NCBI GenBank assembly: GCA_937950405.1
Contig: CALFDH010000045.1
Location: 1-40,561 of the forward strand
Source: an uncultured Meiothermus sp.
Lineage (GTDB): Bacteria > Deinococcota > Deinococci > Deinococcales > Thermaceae
Direction of reading: 5' to 3'
DNA length: 40,561 nt
Made by a program: the position numbers and the translations under genes. Each line of letters opens with the position of its first letter. Positions within the stretch are counted from its first letter, which is position 1. Under the pieces are notes generated by a model. The model had not been told where the DNA came from. It made no database searches and was given only the letters and a program-made list of their open reading frames with translations. Shown one piece after another: positions 30,033 to 37,218 of the stretch.

Positions 30033-33000
30033 ATGCCGGAGACCTTACCCCAACGATCCGAGCTTGTGCTGCATCTGCTGGGCTCGCCTAGGGTGTGGTT
30101 GGGGGGACAGGGTATCACCCTGCCTACCAAAAAGCTTTTGGGACTGGTAGCTTATCTGGCCCTCGAGGGCCCTACCCCCCGCAGCAAGCTGGCCGGGTTG
30201 TTCTGGAGTGAAAACGATGAGGAAAGTGCGCGGCGAAACCTGCGCCGGGAACTCTTCCGCCTGCGCGAGACCCCGCTCAAAGACTGTGTAGAGGTGGGCA
30301 GCAGCGAAGTCGGTTTGGTGGGCCCTGCGCAAACCGATGTGGCCCGGTTCCGGGCGCTGGTGGAGCAGGCCCACTATGAAGAGGCCCTCAACCTGTACAG
30401 GGGCGCTTTGCTGGAAGCGCTCGAGCTGCCCGGAGCAGATGGATTCGGCGAGTGGCTCGAACAAGAGCGCGAGGAGCTGGGCCGCCTTTGGCAACGAACC
30501 CTCCTGTACCAGGCCGAGAACCTCGAGACCCGAGGAGACTGGCGGGGGGCGCTGGAGATTCACCTGCAACTGCTGGCGCAGGACAACCTGCAAGAGCGCC
30601 ACCAGCGCGAGGTGATTCGGCTCTATTACCTGCTGGGAGAGCGCGAGGCGGCGCTGGAGCGCTTCGAGCAGTTCAGGGGAACCCTGAGGCAGGAACTGGG
30701 CCTCGAGCCCCTACCCGAGACCCTGCACCTGGCCGAACAGATTCGCAGCGCACGGACGGTGGAAACCAGGCCCCTTGCTGTGCAGCCCGCAGGCGCTGTC
30801 CTGCCCCTGACTGCCCCGCTGGTAGGGCGCGAACAGGTCTGGCAGCAGATGGAGAGTGCCTGGGCCGATGGGCAGTGGGTGCTGCTCGGTGGCCTGGCGG
30901 GGGTGGGCAAGACCCGCTTACTGCGCGAGTTCATGCTGCACCAGGGTCGGCCCCTGCTTCACCAGGGCCGCCCCACCGATGCCAGCTTGCCTTTTGCTAC
31001 CCTGAGCCGAGCCATCCGCGAACAGTGGCAAACCCAGCCAAACCCTGGGCTGGCGCCCTGGGTACGCCTCGAGCTAGCCCGGCTGGTGCCGGAGCTGGAG
31101 GACACCCCTCCCTCACCCTTGCGGGCCCAGGACGAGCGCCTGCGCCTGTACGAAGCCTATGTGGTCTTTCTGGAAAGCGCCCTCCAAGGCACGGGCGGTT
31201 TGGTGTTCGACGACCTCCAGTACTTCGACCTGCAAAGCCTGGAGTTGCTCATGTTTGCGCTAGAGCGGCTGCGCGAGCGGGGTCAGGCATATCGGTTTCT
31301 GGGGGCGTATCGCAAAGGCGAGCTTGGCCCAGAGGCAGAGCGCTTGCTCCGGCAGCTACACGCCCTGGGCCCTGGCCTGGAACTCGAGCTCAAACCCCTC
31401 TCAGCGCCGCAGATGCTCGAGCTGGTGCGGCGGATGTCAGGTTCCCCCGAGGGGCAGATCTTTACCCAAAGGCTGTACCGGGCCACCGCCGGCAATCCCT
31501 TTTTCGTGTTGGAAATCCTCAAAACCCTGTTCGAGTCGGGGCTGCTACGCATCAATCAGGAGGGCGGCTGGGAAACGCCGTTTGACCTGGAAACCAGCGA
31601 TTATCGGGAGTTGCCCATCCCCAAAAGCGTTCGAGAGGCCGTGCTGCGCCGGGTGGAAAACCTGGGTGAGGGTGCCCGGCGGCTGCTGGAGGCCGCCTGT
31701 CTGGCGGCAGACGGGTTCAGTCTGGCAACGCTGGGTGGGGCTACTGCCCTCTCCGAGTGGGAGGCCGTAGAAGCCCTCGAGCAAACCCTGGAAGCGGCCA
31801 TCCTGGAGTCCAGCCCTCACGGCTACCGGTTCGCCCATGACCTCTTTGCCGAGTCACTGCGGGAGGCCCTTTCCCCCGAGCGCAAACGCCTCTTGCACCG
31901 CAAACTGGCAGCCAGCCTGGAACGTCTGGACGGGCCTGCCGCCCAGATTGCCGAGCACCTCGAGCAAGCCCAGGAGCCCCAGGAGGCCATCCGCTGGCGC
32001 ATCCGGGCCGCCCAGGCCGCCGAACGGGTCTACGCTCACCCCGAAGCCCTTGCGCAGTACCAGCGGGCCCTGGAACTGGGCCTCAGCCTCCCCGAGGCCT
32101 TTGGGGTTCACCTGGCGCTGGCCAACCTCTATCAGAACCAGCTGGACTACACCCAAGCCCAACAGGAACTGGAACGGCTAAACGGCATGGCCCGTTCCAG
32201 CAGCGAACAAGCCGAGCTGGACGTGGCCTGGGCCCGCCTCCTGTTTCACCAGGGGCGCTACGAGCAGGCCAGGAGCAAAGCCCAGGCCGCCCTCGAGGGC
32301 GCCCCCAACGGCCCCAGCCGGGTGCTGGCGCTGCGGCTTTCGGGTTCGTCGCTGTTTCGGCTGGGAGACTCTGTGGGCGCCATAATGCACCTTGAGCAAG
32401 GCCTCGAGGAAGCCCGGCAGTACGCCCCTGAGTTGATACCCACCCTCTCTATAGACCTGGCCTACCCCCTGCTGCAACAAGGCCAGACCGAGCAGGCCCG
32501 GCAGCAGGTGGAGCAGGCCCTGCGGCTCACCCAGCCCTGGCAGCGCGACCACGCCCTGGCCCTCAACGCGCGGGCCCGGCTGGAACTGGCCACCAACCAG
32601 ACCGAACAGGCCGGGCAGACCCTGGGGCAGGCCCTCGAGGTGGCCTACCGGCTCCAGGACGAAACCCTGGCCTTCGCTTTCCTGACCAACCTGCTGCGGG
32701 TGCAGCTCGAGGCTGGAGCCCTGCCCGAAGCCCGTGCCCGCCTGCTGGAAGCCGAGACCCGTTTCAAAAACGCCCACCCCCGTACCCAGAGCACCCTCAA
32801 ACGCCGCCTGGCCGAGGTGGAGTACCTCTGTGGAAATCTGGGCGCGGCCCTGCAAGCCCTCCAGGCTGCCCTCGAGATGGCCGATGCGCTGGGCGAGCGC
32901 GACCAGCAGGTGAGCCTGCGGGCCCTTCAGGCCACCTGGTTGGGTTATCTGGGGGCATTGGCCGAAGCCTGGCAGGTCTGCGGCGGGCTAGCAGAGCTCC

Positions 33001-33497
33001 AGCCCGGTTCGCCACAACTGCACCTCAGCAAGGGTCTTTTGCACCTGCTGGAGGGCAACCCGGCCCAGGCCCAGTCGGTGCTCGAGCCCTTGTTGAACCA
33101 GTCTCTGAACCCACCCGAAGCCCAAGCCACCCTCTGCTGTTATCTGGGTTTGGTGGCCAATACCCTGGGCCAGCCCGAAAAAGCCCTGGCCCTGGCCCAG
33201 ACCCGCTACCCCAGCGGGGCCCTGCAAGCCCTGAACCTGGCGGTGCGCCTCGAGGCCAGCCGCCAACTCGGCCAACCGCTGGAGCCTTTGCTCCTGGAGG
33301 CCCAGGCGCTTTTGGCTTCCGGCAAAGCCCCCCCGCTGGAGGGGCTCGAACTGCGCCGTGTTTTGTTAGAAAGCCTTCCAAACAACCCATTGAGCCGGGA
33401 GACCCGGCAGAGCGTACAGGCCCTGGCCGCAACGCTCGAGGGCTACCTCGAGCTGCGGCAGCTCTTCTTGCAAAGGCAGCAAGACTGCCTCCGATAA
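30033..33497 (+). CDS. Large SARP/BTAD-type transcriptional regulator with AAA ATPase and TPRs
   Basis: An 1154-residue AfsR/LAL-like regulator. An OmpR-type winged helix (about 11-95: 'LHLLGSPRVWLGGQGITLPT', 'LVAYLALEG', 'ARRNLRRELFRLRE') is followed by a bacterial transcriptional activator domain (about 100-250: 'RFRALVEQAHYEEALNLYRG', 'QREVIRLYYLLGEREAALE', 'LRQELGLEPLPET'). Next comes an AAA ATPase with Walker A 'GLAGVGKT' (287-294) and Walker B-like 'LVFDD' (about 390), then many TPR-like helices (about 680-1140). The start has only a weak ribosome binding site. It lies immediately upstream of the cysteine-peptidase operon, whose promoter region carries SARP-like heptamers, so that operon is its likely target (inference). 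Confidence 0.88.
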   Translation: MPETLPQRSELVLHLLGSPRVWLGGQGITLPTKKLLGLVAYLALEGPTPRSKLAGLFWSENDEESARRNLRRELFRLRETPLKDCVEVGSSEVGLVGPAQTDVARFRALVEQAHYEEALNLYRGALLEALELPGADGFGEWLEQEREELGRLWQRTLLYQAENLETRGDWRGALEIHLQLLAQDNLQERHQREVIRLYYLLGEREAALERFEQFRGTLRQELGLEPLPETLHLAEQIRSARTVETRPLAVQPAGAVLPLTAPLVGREQVWQQMESAWADGQWVLLGGLAGVGKTRLLREFMLHQGRPLLHQGRPTDASLPFATLSRAIREQWQTQPNPGLAPWVRLELARLVPELEDTPPSPLRAQDERLRLYEAYVVFLESALQGTGGLVFDDLQYFDLQSLELLMFALERLRERGQAYRFLGAYRKGELGPEAERLLRQLHALGPGLELELKPLSAPQMLELVRRMSGSPEGQIFTQRLYRATAGNPFFVLEILKTLFESGLLRINQEGGWETPFDLETSDYRELPIPKSVREAVLRRVENLGEGARRLLEAACLAADGFSLATLGGATALSEWEAVEALEQTLEAAILESSPHGYRFAHDLFAESLREALSPERKRLLHRKLAASLERLDGPAAQIAEHLEQAQEPQEAIRWRIRAAQAAERVYAHPEALAQYQRALELGLSLPEAFGVHLALANLYQNQLDYTQAQQELERLNGMARSSSEQAELDVAWARLLFHQGRYEQARSKAQAALEGAPNGPSRVLALRLSGSSLFRLGDSVGAIMHLEQGLEEARQYAPELIPTLSIDLAYPLLQQGQTEQARQQVEQALRLTQPWQRDHALALNARARLELATNQTEQAGQTLGQALEVAYRLQDETLAFAFLTNLLRVQLEAGALPEARARLLEAETRFKNAHPRTQSTLKRRLAEVEYLCGNLGAALQALQAALEMADALGERDQQVSLRALQATWLGYLGALAEAWQVCGGLAELQPGSPQLHLSKGLLHLLEGNPAQAQSVLEPLLNQSLNPPEAQATLCCYLGLVANTLGQPEKALALAQTRYPSGALQALNLAVRLEASRQLGQPLEPLLLEAQALLASGKAPPLEGLELRRVLLESLPNNPLSRETRQSVQALAATLEGYLELRQLFLQRQQDCLR

Positions 33498-33559: not shown

Positions 33560-33617
33560 TTGCAACACCAGTACGGATTGCCTTGCAACGCCTTTGCAAC
33601 GCTCGCTTTCCTAACCT
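33560..33617 (+). promoter_or_regulatory. Three TTGCAAC heptamers and promoter of the peptidase operon
   Basis: Identical heptamers TTGCAAC start at 33560, 33583 and 33594. The second and third are separated by 4 bases (11-base period); the first is 23 bases upstream of the second, about two helical turns. TAACCT at 33612-33617 is a possible -10 with the -35 region covered by heptamers 2-3. SARP regulators such as AfsR and ActII-ORF4 bind heptamer direct repeats of 11-base period overlapping a poor -35. A small ACGGTG/CACCGT hairpin (33624-33645) lies in the leader. Confidence 0.6.
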
Positions 33618-33660
33618 TGGTTCACGGTGCAATCCAAAACACCGTAGCTAGGGGGAACCC

Positions 33661-36192
33661 ATGACTTTTGCCAGAAGATCGTCACTGTTTATTTTGACGG
33701 GCCTGTTGCTGGCCTGTTCGGGGGGTGGGGGCGAAAAAGTGTTCACCCCGGATAACGCCCATGGCAGCCCCCCTCCGGCTGGAGCCCAAATGGTCAGTCC
33801 GGAGGAGTTCCGGCAACTGAGCCAGGATCCCGATTTCCGCTGGGAGTCCCAGGTGGCCCGCGAGGCCCGCAAGAAGAAGGCCGAGGAGCAGTTCCAGGCA
33901 GATCTGGTCAGCATCCAGAACCTGGTGCAGCAACGCCCCAGTCTGGGTGTTTTTCTCAAAGAACCCGACCTGAGCGACCCTAGCATCAAGAAGCTATCAG
34001 GGGACAACTACCTGATCACCTTTACCAACAACGCCGGCCAGAGCGAAAGTGTGATCACCATGGGGCCGCGCGCCAAGCTACGCGACCTGCTGGCTGCTCA
34101 TGAGCGCTTTATGCGGGTAGACAATCAGCTGGGGCTGTACACGGAGGCTTACGATAGCCTGCCCGATGACCTCAGGACTGGGCTGCCCACCCCGGCCTCA
34201 CTCTCAGGCAAAAGCTTTGCGGAGATTCGTACCGCTCTGGCCCAGCTCGAGCAGAAGCTCGAGGGACAGGTCGAAGCGCTGGAAGAACGGGCACTACGGG
34301 TCACCCAGCAACGCCTGGGGTTGAGTGCTCAGGCCGACCCCTACCAGCCCCCCAGCTTCCCCGCCAGCCCGGCCAACGAGGAGCGCTCCGGCCTTGGCAG
34401 TGACCGCATCGGTGGGCAGTGCGACTACCGGGCCGGTGGCCTGTACAAGAACCTGCACTGGCCACTCAAGTACTTCACTACCAGCACCAAGAACCAGGGC
34501 CGCCGCGGCTCTTGCACCGGCTTTGCCCTAACCTCAGCAGTCGAAACCCTCGTCGCTGTTCGCGACGGGAGGTGGGTCAACCTCTCAGAGCAGTTCCTTT
34601 ACAACAGGATCAAGACCGTCTGGGATGCCGACGACTACGATGAAGGCGCACCCACCGCCGACGTAGCCGAGAAGTTTAGCGAGAGTGGCTACCGCCTGCC
34701 GTTTGAAGACCAGTGGAACTATAATCCCTCGCTAAAGCGGAAAGGCAATGATGCCGCCGATGAAGAAGCGGATTACATCGGATCCTGCCTGGACTACAAC
34801 GAGCGCTGCTCCAATACCACCCACCAGAGCCAGTTCCTGTGTACCCAGGTTGGCGGAAACTACTACTGCGGCAGCAGACCCCCCAGCAACAACGAGGGCT
34901 ATAAGATCAGCAGCTCGTATCTGCTATGGGAGAACGGCGACGACCTTCCCCTCAACACCATCCGCAACCTCCTGGCGGCTGGACGGCCCATGGTGGTGGC
35001 CCTGGAGGTCACTAGAGCATGGCATGATCTAAATACAAACGGCTTCCTTTGGGATCATCGCGACACCGTGCTGGGTGGCCATGCCATCCATCTGGTGGGC
35101 TATCTCTCGAACAGCAAAATCCAGGAAAAGCTTTTCAATGCACCCAGTGGGCAGGGAGGCGGATACTTTATCCTGAAGAATTCCTGGGGCACATGCTATG
35201 GCGATGGTGGTTTAATTTACATCCCGGTGAAATGGGCCAAGAACTTCTTCAAGAACATTACTGTCTTCCGCGCCTCCAGTTCCAACATCTTCAAGAACCG
35301 CCCACCCAGCATCAGCATCACCACACCAGCCGACGGGGCTAGCTTTCCCTACAAGCAATCCATCACCTACAGCGCTTCTGTCACCGACCCCGATGGGGAA
35401 ACACCCACCGTCACCTGGACTTCCAGCAAGGACGGTGTACTAGGCAGCGGTAGCAACCTGACCACCGAATTTAGCTCCCCCGGGCTCCGCACCATTACTG
35501 TCACAGCCCGCGATGCGCTGGGCTTTACGGCTTCGGCCTCCATCACAGTGCGCGGAACCAACCTGCCCCCCACCGCCGAAATCATAAGCCCCAATACCAC
35601 CACGGCCCTGGTCGGACAAACCCTGGTGTTCCGGGGCCGGGGCCTGGACGGCGACGGAGCCTTCCCGGTAGAACTGCCCTGTAGCAGCCTCACCTGGAGC
35701 AGCAGCAACAGCGCCGATACCCTGGGCAGCGGCTGTGAATTCATAGCCAGCTTTGCCATCGCTGGCACCCGTACCATCACCTTGCGGGCCACCGACCCCT
35801 ACGGAGCCCCGGGAAGTGCAACCCGTACCATCACTGTGAACAATCCACCCCCCAGCGGCCCGCCGGTGGTGACTATCCTTAACCCCAAGGATAACGATTC
35901 CTTCCTGGCCAACAGCAACATCCCGCTTACCTTCAGCCTGACCGACCCCGGCGGCGGGCCCGGCAGCCAGTACACGGTGGTCTGGCGGCTCATCTACGGC
36001 AGCCAGAGCTGGACTATTGTGCCCAAAACCTGCAGGACTGCTTCCGGCATTCCTTTCCCCTGCTTCACCCCCGCCGACTACGGCATCAACAACTACGGGG
36101 TCAAGCTCATGCAGCTCCGGCTTTCCGTCACCGACCCCGAGAACCTGACCGGCACCGACCAGGTCAACATCAGCATTGGGCTAGTGCCGTAG
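33661..36192 (+). CDS. Secreted papain-like (C1A) cysteine peptidase lipoprotein with Ig/PKD-like repeats
   Basis: An 843-residue lipoprotein with lipobox 'LLLAC' (Cys19). An N-terminal helical, charged region (about 40-240) could be a propeptide. The peptidase domain has Gln279 and Cys285 in 'NQGRRGSCTGFA', His474 in 'LGGHAIHLVGY' and Asn507 in 'FILKNSWGTCYGDGG', the complete papain tetrad. About 60 residues between catalytic Cys and His contain four extra Cys ('GSCLDYNERCS', 'FLCTQVGGNYYCG'), perhaps disulphides. Three Ig/PKD-like modules follow (about 545-640, 640-735, 740-843: 'PPSISITTPADGASF', 'LPPTAEIISP', 'PPVVTILNPKDNDSF'). It starts the operon with DUF3592 and a 66-residue protein. 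AGGGGG precedes the ATG. Confidence 0.9.
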   Translation: MTFARRSSLFILTGLLLACSGGGGEKVFTPDNAHGSPPPAGAQMVSPEEFRQLSQDPDFRWESQVAREARKKKAEEQFQADLVSIQNLVQQRPSLGVFLKEPDLSDPSIKKLSGDNYLITFTNNAGQSESVITMGPRAKLRDLLAAHERFMRVDNQLGLYTEAYDSLPDDLRTGLPTPASLSGKSFAEIRTALAQLEQKLEGQVEALEERALRVTQQRLGLSAQADPYQPPSFPASPANEERSGLGSDRIGGQCDYRAGGLYKNLHWPLKYFTTSTKNQGRRGSCTGFALTSAVETLVAVRDGRWVNLSEQFLYNRIKTVWDADDYDEGAPTADVAEKFSESGYRLPFEDQWNYNPSLKRKGNDAADEEADYIGSCLDYNERCSNTTHQSQFLCTQVGGNYYCGSRPPSNNEGYKISSSYLLWENGDDLPLNTIRNLLAAGRPMVVALEVTRAWHDLNTNGFLWDHRDTVLGGHAIHLVGYLSNSKIQEKLFNAPSGQGGGYFILKNSWGTCYGDGGLIYIPVKWAKNFFKNITVFRASSSNIFKNRPPSISITTPADGASFPYKQSITYSASVTDPDGETPTVTWTSSKDGVLGSGSNLTTEFSSPGLRTITVTARDALGFTASASITVRGTNLPPTAEIISPNTTTALVGQTLVFRGRGLDGDGAFPVELPCSSLTWSSSNSADTLGSGCEFIASFAIAGTRTITLRATDPYGAPGSATRTITVNNPPPSGPPVVTILNPKDNDSFLANSNIPLTFSLTDPGGGPGSQYTVVWRLIYGSQSWTIVPKTCRTASGIPFPCFTPADYGINNYGVKLMQLRLSVTDPENLTGTDQVNISIGLVP

Positions 36193-36204: not shown

Positions 36205-37005
36205 ATGCGCACCATGGGGCGGGCTTTTGGCGGTTTGGGCGGGTTCATGCTGCTGCTGGGGGTGGGGCTGGTGGTGGGAGCCTTCTTCCAGGGGGGGGCG
36301 GCCTCGCTGGCCCTCAACATAGCCGGCATCACCCTGGGCCTCACCGGCGTGATTTTTGCCTGGGTTGGGCAGTTTTTGGGTCGGATGGACACCGCTGACC
36401 TCCTCCAGCGCGGTCGGCCTGCTGCAGCCAGGATATTGGCGGTACGGGACACCGGCATCACCCTCAACCACATCTACGCAGCCCTCGAGCTCACCCTGGA
36501 AATCCATCCCCCCGGGCGCCCGGCCTACACTGTCCAGACCCGCACCCTGCTGGAGCGCACCCAGTGGGGCAGCCTTCAGCCCGGTATGGTAGTACAGGTG
36601 CGCGTAGACCCTCAAAACCCCCAGCGCGTAGCAATAGAAAGCATTACCGCCGGACAGGCTTCGCAATACTACATTGCCGGAGTTCAGCGGGCCGAGGACA
36701 TCGTGGCGGCGGGCCTGCGGGCCGAAGCCGAGGTGCTGGCCGTCCAGGCCACCGGTGCCAGTGCCGCCCAGCTCAGTCCGGGTCTGGCCCTCCGCTCCGA
36801 GGAGGCCGACGACCCGGTAATGGTGGTACGGCTGCGGGTTTACCCCACCGAGGGCGCGCCTTTCGAGGCCGAGTCGGCCCTGCGCATTCCCGATGGCAAG
36901 GGTCATGCGCTGGTGGTGGGGCAGCGGGTTCCGGTGGCCTACCTACCGCACAACCCAGCCCGTACCACCACCCTCCACTGGGCCAAGGTTCCCACCCGAA
37001 GCTGA
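36205..37005 (+). CDS. DUF3592-like membrane protein
   Basis: A 266-residue protein with two N-terminal membrane helices (about 9-28 and 36-57) and two copies of a soluble beta module: 'RPAAARILAVRDTGITLNH' ... 'GMVVQVRVDPQNPQRVAIE' and 'LRAEAEVLAVQATGASAAQ' ... 'GQRVPVAYLPHNPARTT'. This duplicated pattern (modify, then 'G..V.V.Y.P.NP') is that of DUF3592 proteins; function unknown. It starts 12 bases after the peptidase stop, with AGAGAGGAAG as ribosome binding site, so it is co-transcribed. Confidence 0.75.
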   Translation: MRTMGRAFGGLGGFMLLLGVGLVVGAFFQGGAASLALNIAGITLGLTGVIFAWVGQFLGRMDTADLLQRGRPAAARILAVRDTGITLNHIYAALELTLEIHPPGRPAYTVQTRTLLERTQWGSLQPGMVVQVRVDPQNPQRVAIESITAGQASQYYIAGVQRAEDIVAAGLRAEAEVLAVQATGASAAQLSPGLALRSEEADDPVMVVRLRVYPTEGAPFEAESALRIPDGKGHALVVGQRVPVAYLPHNPARTTTLHWAKVPTRS

Positions 37006-37017
37006 AGAAGGACGCGC

Positions 37018-37218
37018 ATGAAACCCACCCGACCCACCGCTCCCCATCTGCTACGGGAATACCGGCTTTGGGTCTACCCCGAGACCCAGAGCCGGCCCTG
37101 GCACGCCACCCTGGAAAAAACCGACCACTCCGAGCACCTCGAGTTCGACTCCCCCCTAGAGCTGGCCCGGCACCTGGCCAACCTCACCAACCCCGTCCCC
37201 AGGGGGCGTTTACGGTAG
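37018..37218 (+). CDS. Small hypothetical protein in the peptidase operon
   Basis: A 66-residue soluble, charged protein with AAGGA 6 bases before the ATG and a 12-base gap after the DUF3592 gene, which supports real translation. I do not recognise a family. The C-terminal half 'LEFDSPLELARHLANLT' looks like a short helix-forming domain. Confidence 0.65.
   Translation: MKPTRPTAPHLLREYRLWVYPETQSRPWHATLEKTDHSEHLEFDSPLELARHLANLTNPVPRGRLR

Follow-up and report, generated by a model that had tools for sequence, protein, structure and literature searches.

In an uncultured Meiothermus sp., a perfect pair of direct repeats, TTGCAACGC, is very likely to be the operator of the SARP-type regulator encoded beside it, through which an adjacent operon for a secreted peptidase lipoprotein would be activated; both the binding and the activation are inferred. 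In heat-loving bacteria, an arrangement known so far from the control of antibiotics in Streptomyces is found again, with other repeat words, next to dozens of regulators related to this one; what it turns on there, by inference, appears to be secreted proteases and lipoproteins, not antibiotics. The stretch of DNA analysed as a whole, 40,561 nucleotides in length, is referred to below as the window.

The repeat site and its promoter context

Three copies of TTGCAAC are present on the + strand, at 33560-33566, 33583-33589 and 33594-33600, with steps of 23 and 11 bp, ahead of a weak -10. This is what a preliminary description of the DNA had claimed, together with the identity of the surrounding genes (a BTAD-AAA-TPR regulator before the repeats; a papain-like lipoprotein, a DUF3592 protein and a small protein after them), and all of these claims held. 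The heptamer alone is not enriched, with 7 copies in the 40.6-kb window against 5.5 expected. The outer copy, at 33560-33566, lies 23 bp 5' of the inner pair, and the latter reads TTGCAACGC-CT-TTGCAACGC, a perfect 9/9 direct repeat with a period of 11, followed by TAACCT. We predict operator unit 1 at 33583-33591, operator unit 2 at 33594-33602, 11 bp past the former, and a -10 element at 33612-33617, all on the + strand. This -10 is weak and has no -35; it stands 10 nt past the ACG core of unit 2, that is 9 nt past the 9-bp unit itself, a spacing that is fixed across sites. No sigma-70-like promoter was found between the regulator and peptidase genes, the sole nearby match being inside the next gene, and a search for a terminator between the same two genes found none. 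The start of transcription, inferred and not mapped, would be near 33624.

Such a site is rare. When an 8/9 direct repeat of period 8-23 with a suitably placed TANNNT was looked for on both strands, the site was the single match in 40.6 kb. The 163-bp intergenic region was shuffled 20,000 times with dinucleotides preserved: 8 shuffles had a 9/9 repeat of period 11, 2 had it together with a -10, and none had three copies of TTGCAAC.

Two further TTGCAAC pairs of the same genome were considered as candidates and set aside. One is inside a coding sequence, which we take to be that of a PIN-domain protein, with homologous copies in genomes G006 and G014. The other overlaps the start of an HxlR-type gene and is probably a palindromic operator; a conserved pair at such a gene start is seen at L009:8928-8944 (G000:C102) and L026:9894-9910 (G006), and it is likely to be that regulator's own operator.

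The regulator and its fold

The regulator gene (30033-33497, + strand) encodes 1154 residues, in which a SARP part, made of a winged helix and a BTAD domain (residues 1-250), is followed by an AAA ATPase and TPR repeats. Pfam recognizes BTAD at 113-238, AAA_16 at 262-414, and TPR_12, and the Walker motifs are present in the ATPase part. Because Pfam by itself missed the winged helix, a structure model of the N-terminus was made. The AlphaFold model of residues 1-256 has a pLDDT of 93.5, and a Foldseek comparison with the PDB gave strong matches only to AfsR and EmbR, which a profile of the regulator family also finds (E 1.7e-19 to AfsR). Computation thus shows, in the form of a model prediction, that the N-terminal part has the SARP fold, an OmpR-type winged helix and then BTAD. 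The criterion for a large SARP of the AfsR type, an ATPase (NOD) and TPR behind the SARP part, is met by AAA_16 and TPR_12. Compared by sequence with the PDB, the ATPase-TPR part gave no match to AfsR, and its kinship to that of AfsR is therefore not shown.

The predicted target operon and its small protein

The predicted target begins with the gene of a secreted papain-family (C1) peptidase lipoprotein of 843 residues (33661-36192, + strand; Pfam Peptidase_C1, Big_7 and PKD), with the catalytic residues C285, H474 and N507 in place. After a 12-nt gap comes the gene of a DUF3592 protein (36205-37005, +; Pfam DUF3592), assigned to the operon by its position, and then that of a 66-residue protein (37018-37218, +) belonging to a family that recurs in these operons. 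The three genes lie on one strand with short gaps between them.

Members of the small protein family are 55-80 residues long, most of them ending in GLR or similar; besides the one in the window, examples are found at L023:7217-7423, at L114:6861-7037, in L231, L235 and L237, and elsewhere. A gene of this kind follows, 3' on the same strand, 50 of the 111 BTAD regulators, mostly 20-40 nt past the stop codon. A Pfam search of the small protein gave no match; its model, of moderate confidence, is beta-beta-beta-alpha, and a fold search with it found nothing significant. That the protein is a partner of the regulator or a feedback element is possible, and no more than a guess. In two loci (L023:7177-7220 and L117:7142-7190) its start codon is only a few nt past the predicted -10, which suggests leaderless transcripts.

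Conservation in orthologous loci

The repeats are kept in three other genomes of the Meiothermus group (G006, M. hypogaeus and G005) amid diverged flanks. The regulator is 92% identical to that of the window in G006 and 85% in M. hypogaeus (L120), and in both the same lipoprotein gene comes after it. Across the four genomes, the window included, TGCAACGC-N3-TGCAACGC followed by CTTT-CTA--CT is invariant, so that both operator units are conserved in all four. The outer copy of TTGCAAC is kept in the window, G006 and M. hypogaeus, at 23, 23 and 22 bp, and is absent in G005. Since its distance varies between 23 bp here and 22 bp in M. hypogaeus, we infer that what is essential is the inner pair, with its period of 11. 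In G005, the operator has been kept but the target is now a subtilisin-family lipoprotein, with an unrelated gene in between. The repeat and its conservation are shown by computation, and a lack of conservation of the repeats in orthologous loci, which would have refuted the preliminary description, was not observed. That description is refined by the position of the outer copy, which is at 23 in the window; the steps in M. hypogaeus are the canonical 22 and 11.

A side observation concerns the G005 orthologue itself (L028:1738-3450), a protein of 570 residues without the whole ATPase part (about residues 208-791), which resembles a small SARP.

Recurrence beside paralogous regulators

BTAD-regulator loci were taken across the bacterial family and then across the order, and the 3' side of each gene was searched. 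Exact 7-mers repeated at a distance of 11 in the first 200 bp 3' of BTAD genes gave 35 counts (9 counts at the next distance), and the upstream regions of these genes show no period-11 excess, which places the sites mainly on the 3' side of the regulators. The regulators were then grouped at 60% identity into 20 clusters; with a site defined as an 8/9 repeat with a -10, sites within 300 nt 3' were found for 9 of the 20 clusters at period 11, against at most two for each of the other periods between 8 and 33. Over 3.5 kb downstream, 39 sites had period 11; the opposite strand had 2, and other periods gave 0-4. The same rule, applied to more families of the order that were added later, gave 8 sites against 0-1 at other periods; because the second regulator set shares contigs with the first (L199 is L121, and L200 is L124), only the 5 sites not already counted are independent. 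A strict operator nearby is missing in more than half of the regulators examined.

Each group of regulators has its own repeat word, often reused within a locus, where it recurs at a second and a third promoter; examples of reuse at two promoters are CAGTCATGC in L109, TTTGGAACG in L204 and CCGGTCATC in L093. The spacing to the -10 follows the type of word: with the distance left unrestricted, 21 of 30 distinct ACG-type sites have TANNNT exactly 10 nt past their second ACG core, and 18 of 27 sites with TCA cores have it exactly 12 nt past the second of these, other distances from 0 to 30 holding three sites at most each. This recurrence with fixed geometry beside paralogues is likewise shown by computation. 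Most products of the adjacent operons examined as targets are lipoproteins or exported proteins; there are papain-family peptidases in the window, L062 and L066, and subtilisin-family proteins in L028, L065, L102, L109, L117 and L023, the remaining targets being unknown.

Whole-genome counts point the same way. In 111 genomes of the order, GCAACG-N5-GCAACG-N8-12-TANNNT was found 27 times and its reversed pattern once, while GTCATC-N5-GTCAT-N9-13-TANNNT was found 38 times and its control once; the genome of the window contains the first pattern at the window site only. Some matches have no BTAD gene in their 3-kb stretch, and a few of these precede lipoproteins, the assignment of the next ORF being unreliable on the minus strand. 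Between them, G066 and G031, both from a different family within the order, have nine promoters with 11-bp GCAACG repeats and no nearby BTAD gene (L241, L242, L255, L256 and L260-L264), two of them preceding the same methyltransferase-like gene. These may belong to a different regulator or to a remote regulon.

Recognition helix and repeat word

In the model the predicted recognition helix spans residues 63-78, with R71, R72 and R76 (codons at 30219-30266, + strand). Two residues of AfsR that contact bases, T88 and R92, correspond by alignment to R72 and R76 of the window regulator. Regulators with R72 that have operators use the word GCAACG or GCCACG; those with K72 (two regulators in two families) GGAACG; those with Q72 TAACG or TGACG; and those with A or V at 71 GTCATC. 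Counted by hand at the level of groups, 8 of the 9 with R or K at 72 have C or G as the varying base, and all 7 with Q or V have T, one of them with A in one copy. This rule was formed on the first set and noted before the helices of the other families were inspected. Among the latter, L206 fits it, and L204 and L233 fit by way of K72, a residue that the rule had not named; L213 is the one exception.

That the word tracks residues of the recognition helix is thus shown by computation. A contact of residue 72 with the varying base is only inferred, because this base is one position off that contacted by AfsR T88. A tree made without the recognition helix needs four changes of the R/K label, of which well supported branches force only one; with branch support no more than moderate, independent changes are suggested and not proven.

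Alternative explanations

The TTGCAA words might be half-sites of another regulator, the BTAD gene being a mere neighbour. TTGCAA is indeed self-complementary, and the genome has another pair of this kind that overlaps an HxlR-type gene at its start. However, what is conserved is TGCAACGC, an asymmetric unit repeated in the same direction, other BTAD groups carry non-palindromic words at the same place, and the word follows the recognition helix of the neighbouring regulator. We consider this reading very unlikely.

Also very unlikely is that the regulator binds here but represses, or chiefly controls its own gene, without activating what lies downstream. Expression data are absent, and more than one mode of action is possible for large ATPase regulators. 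Yet the site is 3' of the regulator gene and over the -35 position, a weak -10 without -35 needs help, not blocking, and no period-11 excess is seen upstream of BTAD genes.

A chance repeat in a GC-rich intergenic region, to which the near-expected heptamer count in the window would lend itself, is all but excluded by the shuffles, the orthologues, the paralogues, the whole-genome controls and conservation in diverged loci.

A proposed mechanism and its consequences

We are left with the inner pair as the operator of the adjacent SARP-type regulator, which would work like a large SARP such as AfsR. An unknown signal would switch on the ATPase-TPR part (peptides or other protein substrates are a guess); two N-terminal SARP parts would then bind side by side on the two 11-bp units and occupy the place of the missing -35, where they would give sigma region 4 a docking place. 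RNA polymerase would be recruited in this way to the weak -10 at 33612, and the three genes of the operon, for the secreted papain-like lipoprotein, the DUF3592 protein and the small protein, would be turned on. The binding, the activation, the sigma adaptation and the signal all remain inferences, without binding, expression or start-site data.

The preliminary description had proposed that the regulator activates the adjacent operon, and computation supports this as an inference; it had also proposed an operator of the SARP style, supported by the same geometry beside paralogues with different words, by helix tracking and by the SARP fold. Its suggestion that the paradigm is extended to the Deinococcus-Thermus phylum held in part: SARP-domain proteins had already been annotated in Deinococcus (PMC3564903), so that what is new is the operators, their specificity and their targets.

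A bolder reading, to which we incline with some reserve, is that the order Deinococcales has a large and diverse collection of SARP-type one-component switches. Every switch would have a separate 11-bp-repeat word, recognised through residues 71-72, and would lie next to a secreted peptidase or lipoprotein operon of its own; a dedicated small protein, which may tune the regulator, would often accompany it. If true, this would give the SARP family a natural library of specificities outside antibiotics. The operators, the predicted targets and what is likely to be the recognition code have been found together. This predicts the promoter controlled by each of dozens of uncharacterised thermophile regulators, leaves the code open to single-residue swaps, offers orthogonal thermostable activator-promoter pairs and ties the SARP machinery to secreted proteolysis.

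Comparison with known systems

According to a 2024 review, SARPs occur only in actinobacteria and are linked with secondary metabolism (PMC10972967). This usual description is not met here, in the Deinococcota and beside a peptidase lipoprotein operon; we take it as describing the known members, not as a structural criterion. A 2013 study of Deinococcus did not settle which targets a SARP regulator of that phylum has (PMC3564903), and in the open-access PMC literature that we searched, with most subscription journals and preprints outside reach, we found no report of SARP operators or targets in this phylum. Two of the closest known systems are relatives by taxonomy. Deide_19260 of Deinococcus deserti (PMC3564903), from the same phylum, is annotated in the SARP family, but it is a response regulator with a receiver domain, of unknown targets and operator. 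DnrS of Thermus thermophilus (PMC5748679), from the same family of bacteria, is also a BTAD activator with a non-antibiotic role; it differs in having an N-terminal GAF and a C-terminal BTAD domain and in controlling nitrate respiration genes, and no SARP-type operator is described for it in that article.

EmbR of Mycobacterium tuberculosis (PDB 2fez) shares the N-terminal fold, with a C-terminal Forkhead-associated domain instead of the ATPase-TPR part. SARP-LAL proteins such as PimR (PMC10972967) also have a SARP part fused to a large ATPase, and heptamers repeated directly with 4-nt spacers, of which the main site has three; PimR, however, is actinobacterial, has polyene antibiotic targets and binds a site without -35 overlap.

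A further close counterpart is AfsR with its afs box, in Streptomyces coelicolor (PMC10936776, PMC10972967). It differs in its phylum, in its targets, afsS or antibiotics against the secreted peptidase operon of the window, in its word, which in the window is TTGCAACGC, and in its ATPase part, the window's being a Pfam AAA_16 without detectable sequence match to AfsR. The two are alike in the SARP fold with ATPase and TPR behind it, and in two 11-bp direct repeats over a missing -35 with a weak -10; moreover, the CAGTCATCC group of words resembles the afs word CGTTCATCG. By the published rules for SARPs, the repeats are spaced by 11 or 22 bp, 8 bp separate the 3' one from the -10, and the -35 beneath them is poor (PMC10936776). 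The window geometry is within 1 bp of these promoters, and, against the published coordinates of afsS, it has a single nucleotide more between the repeat and the -10.
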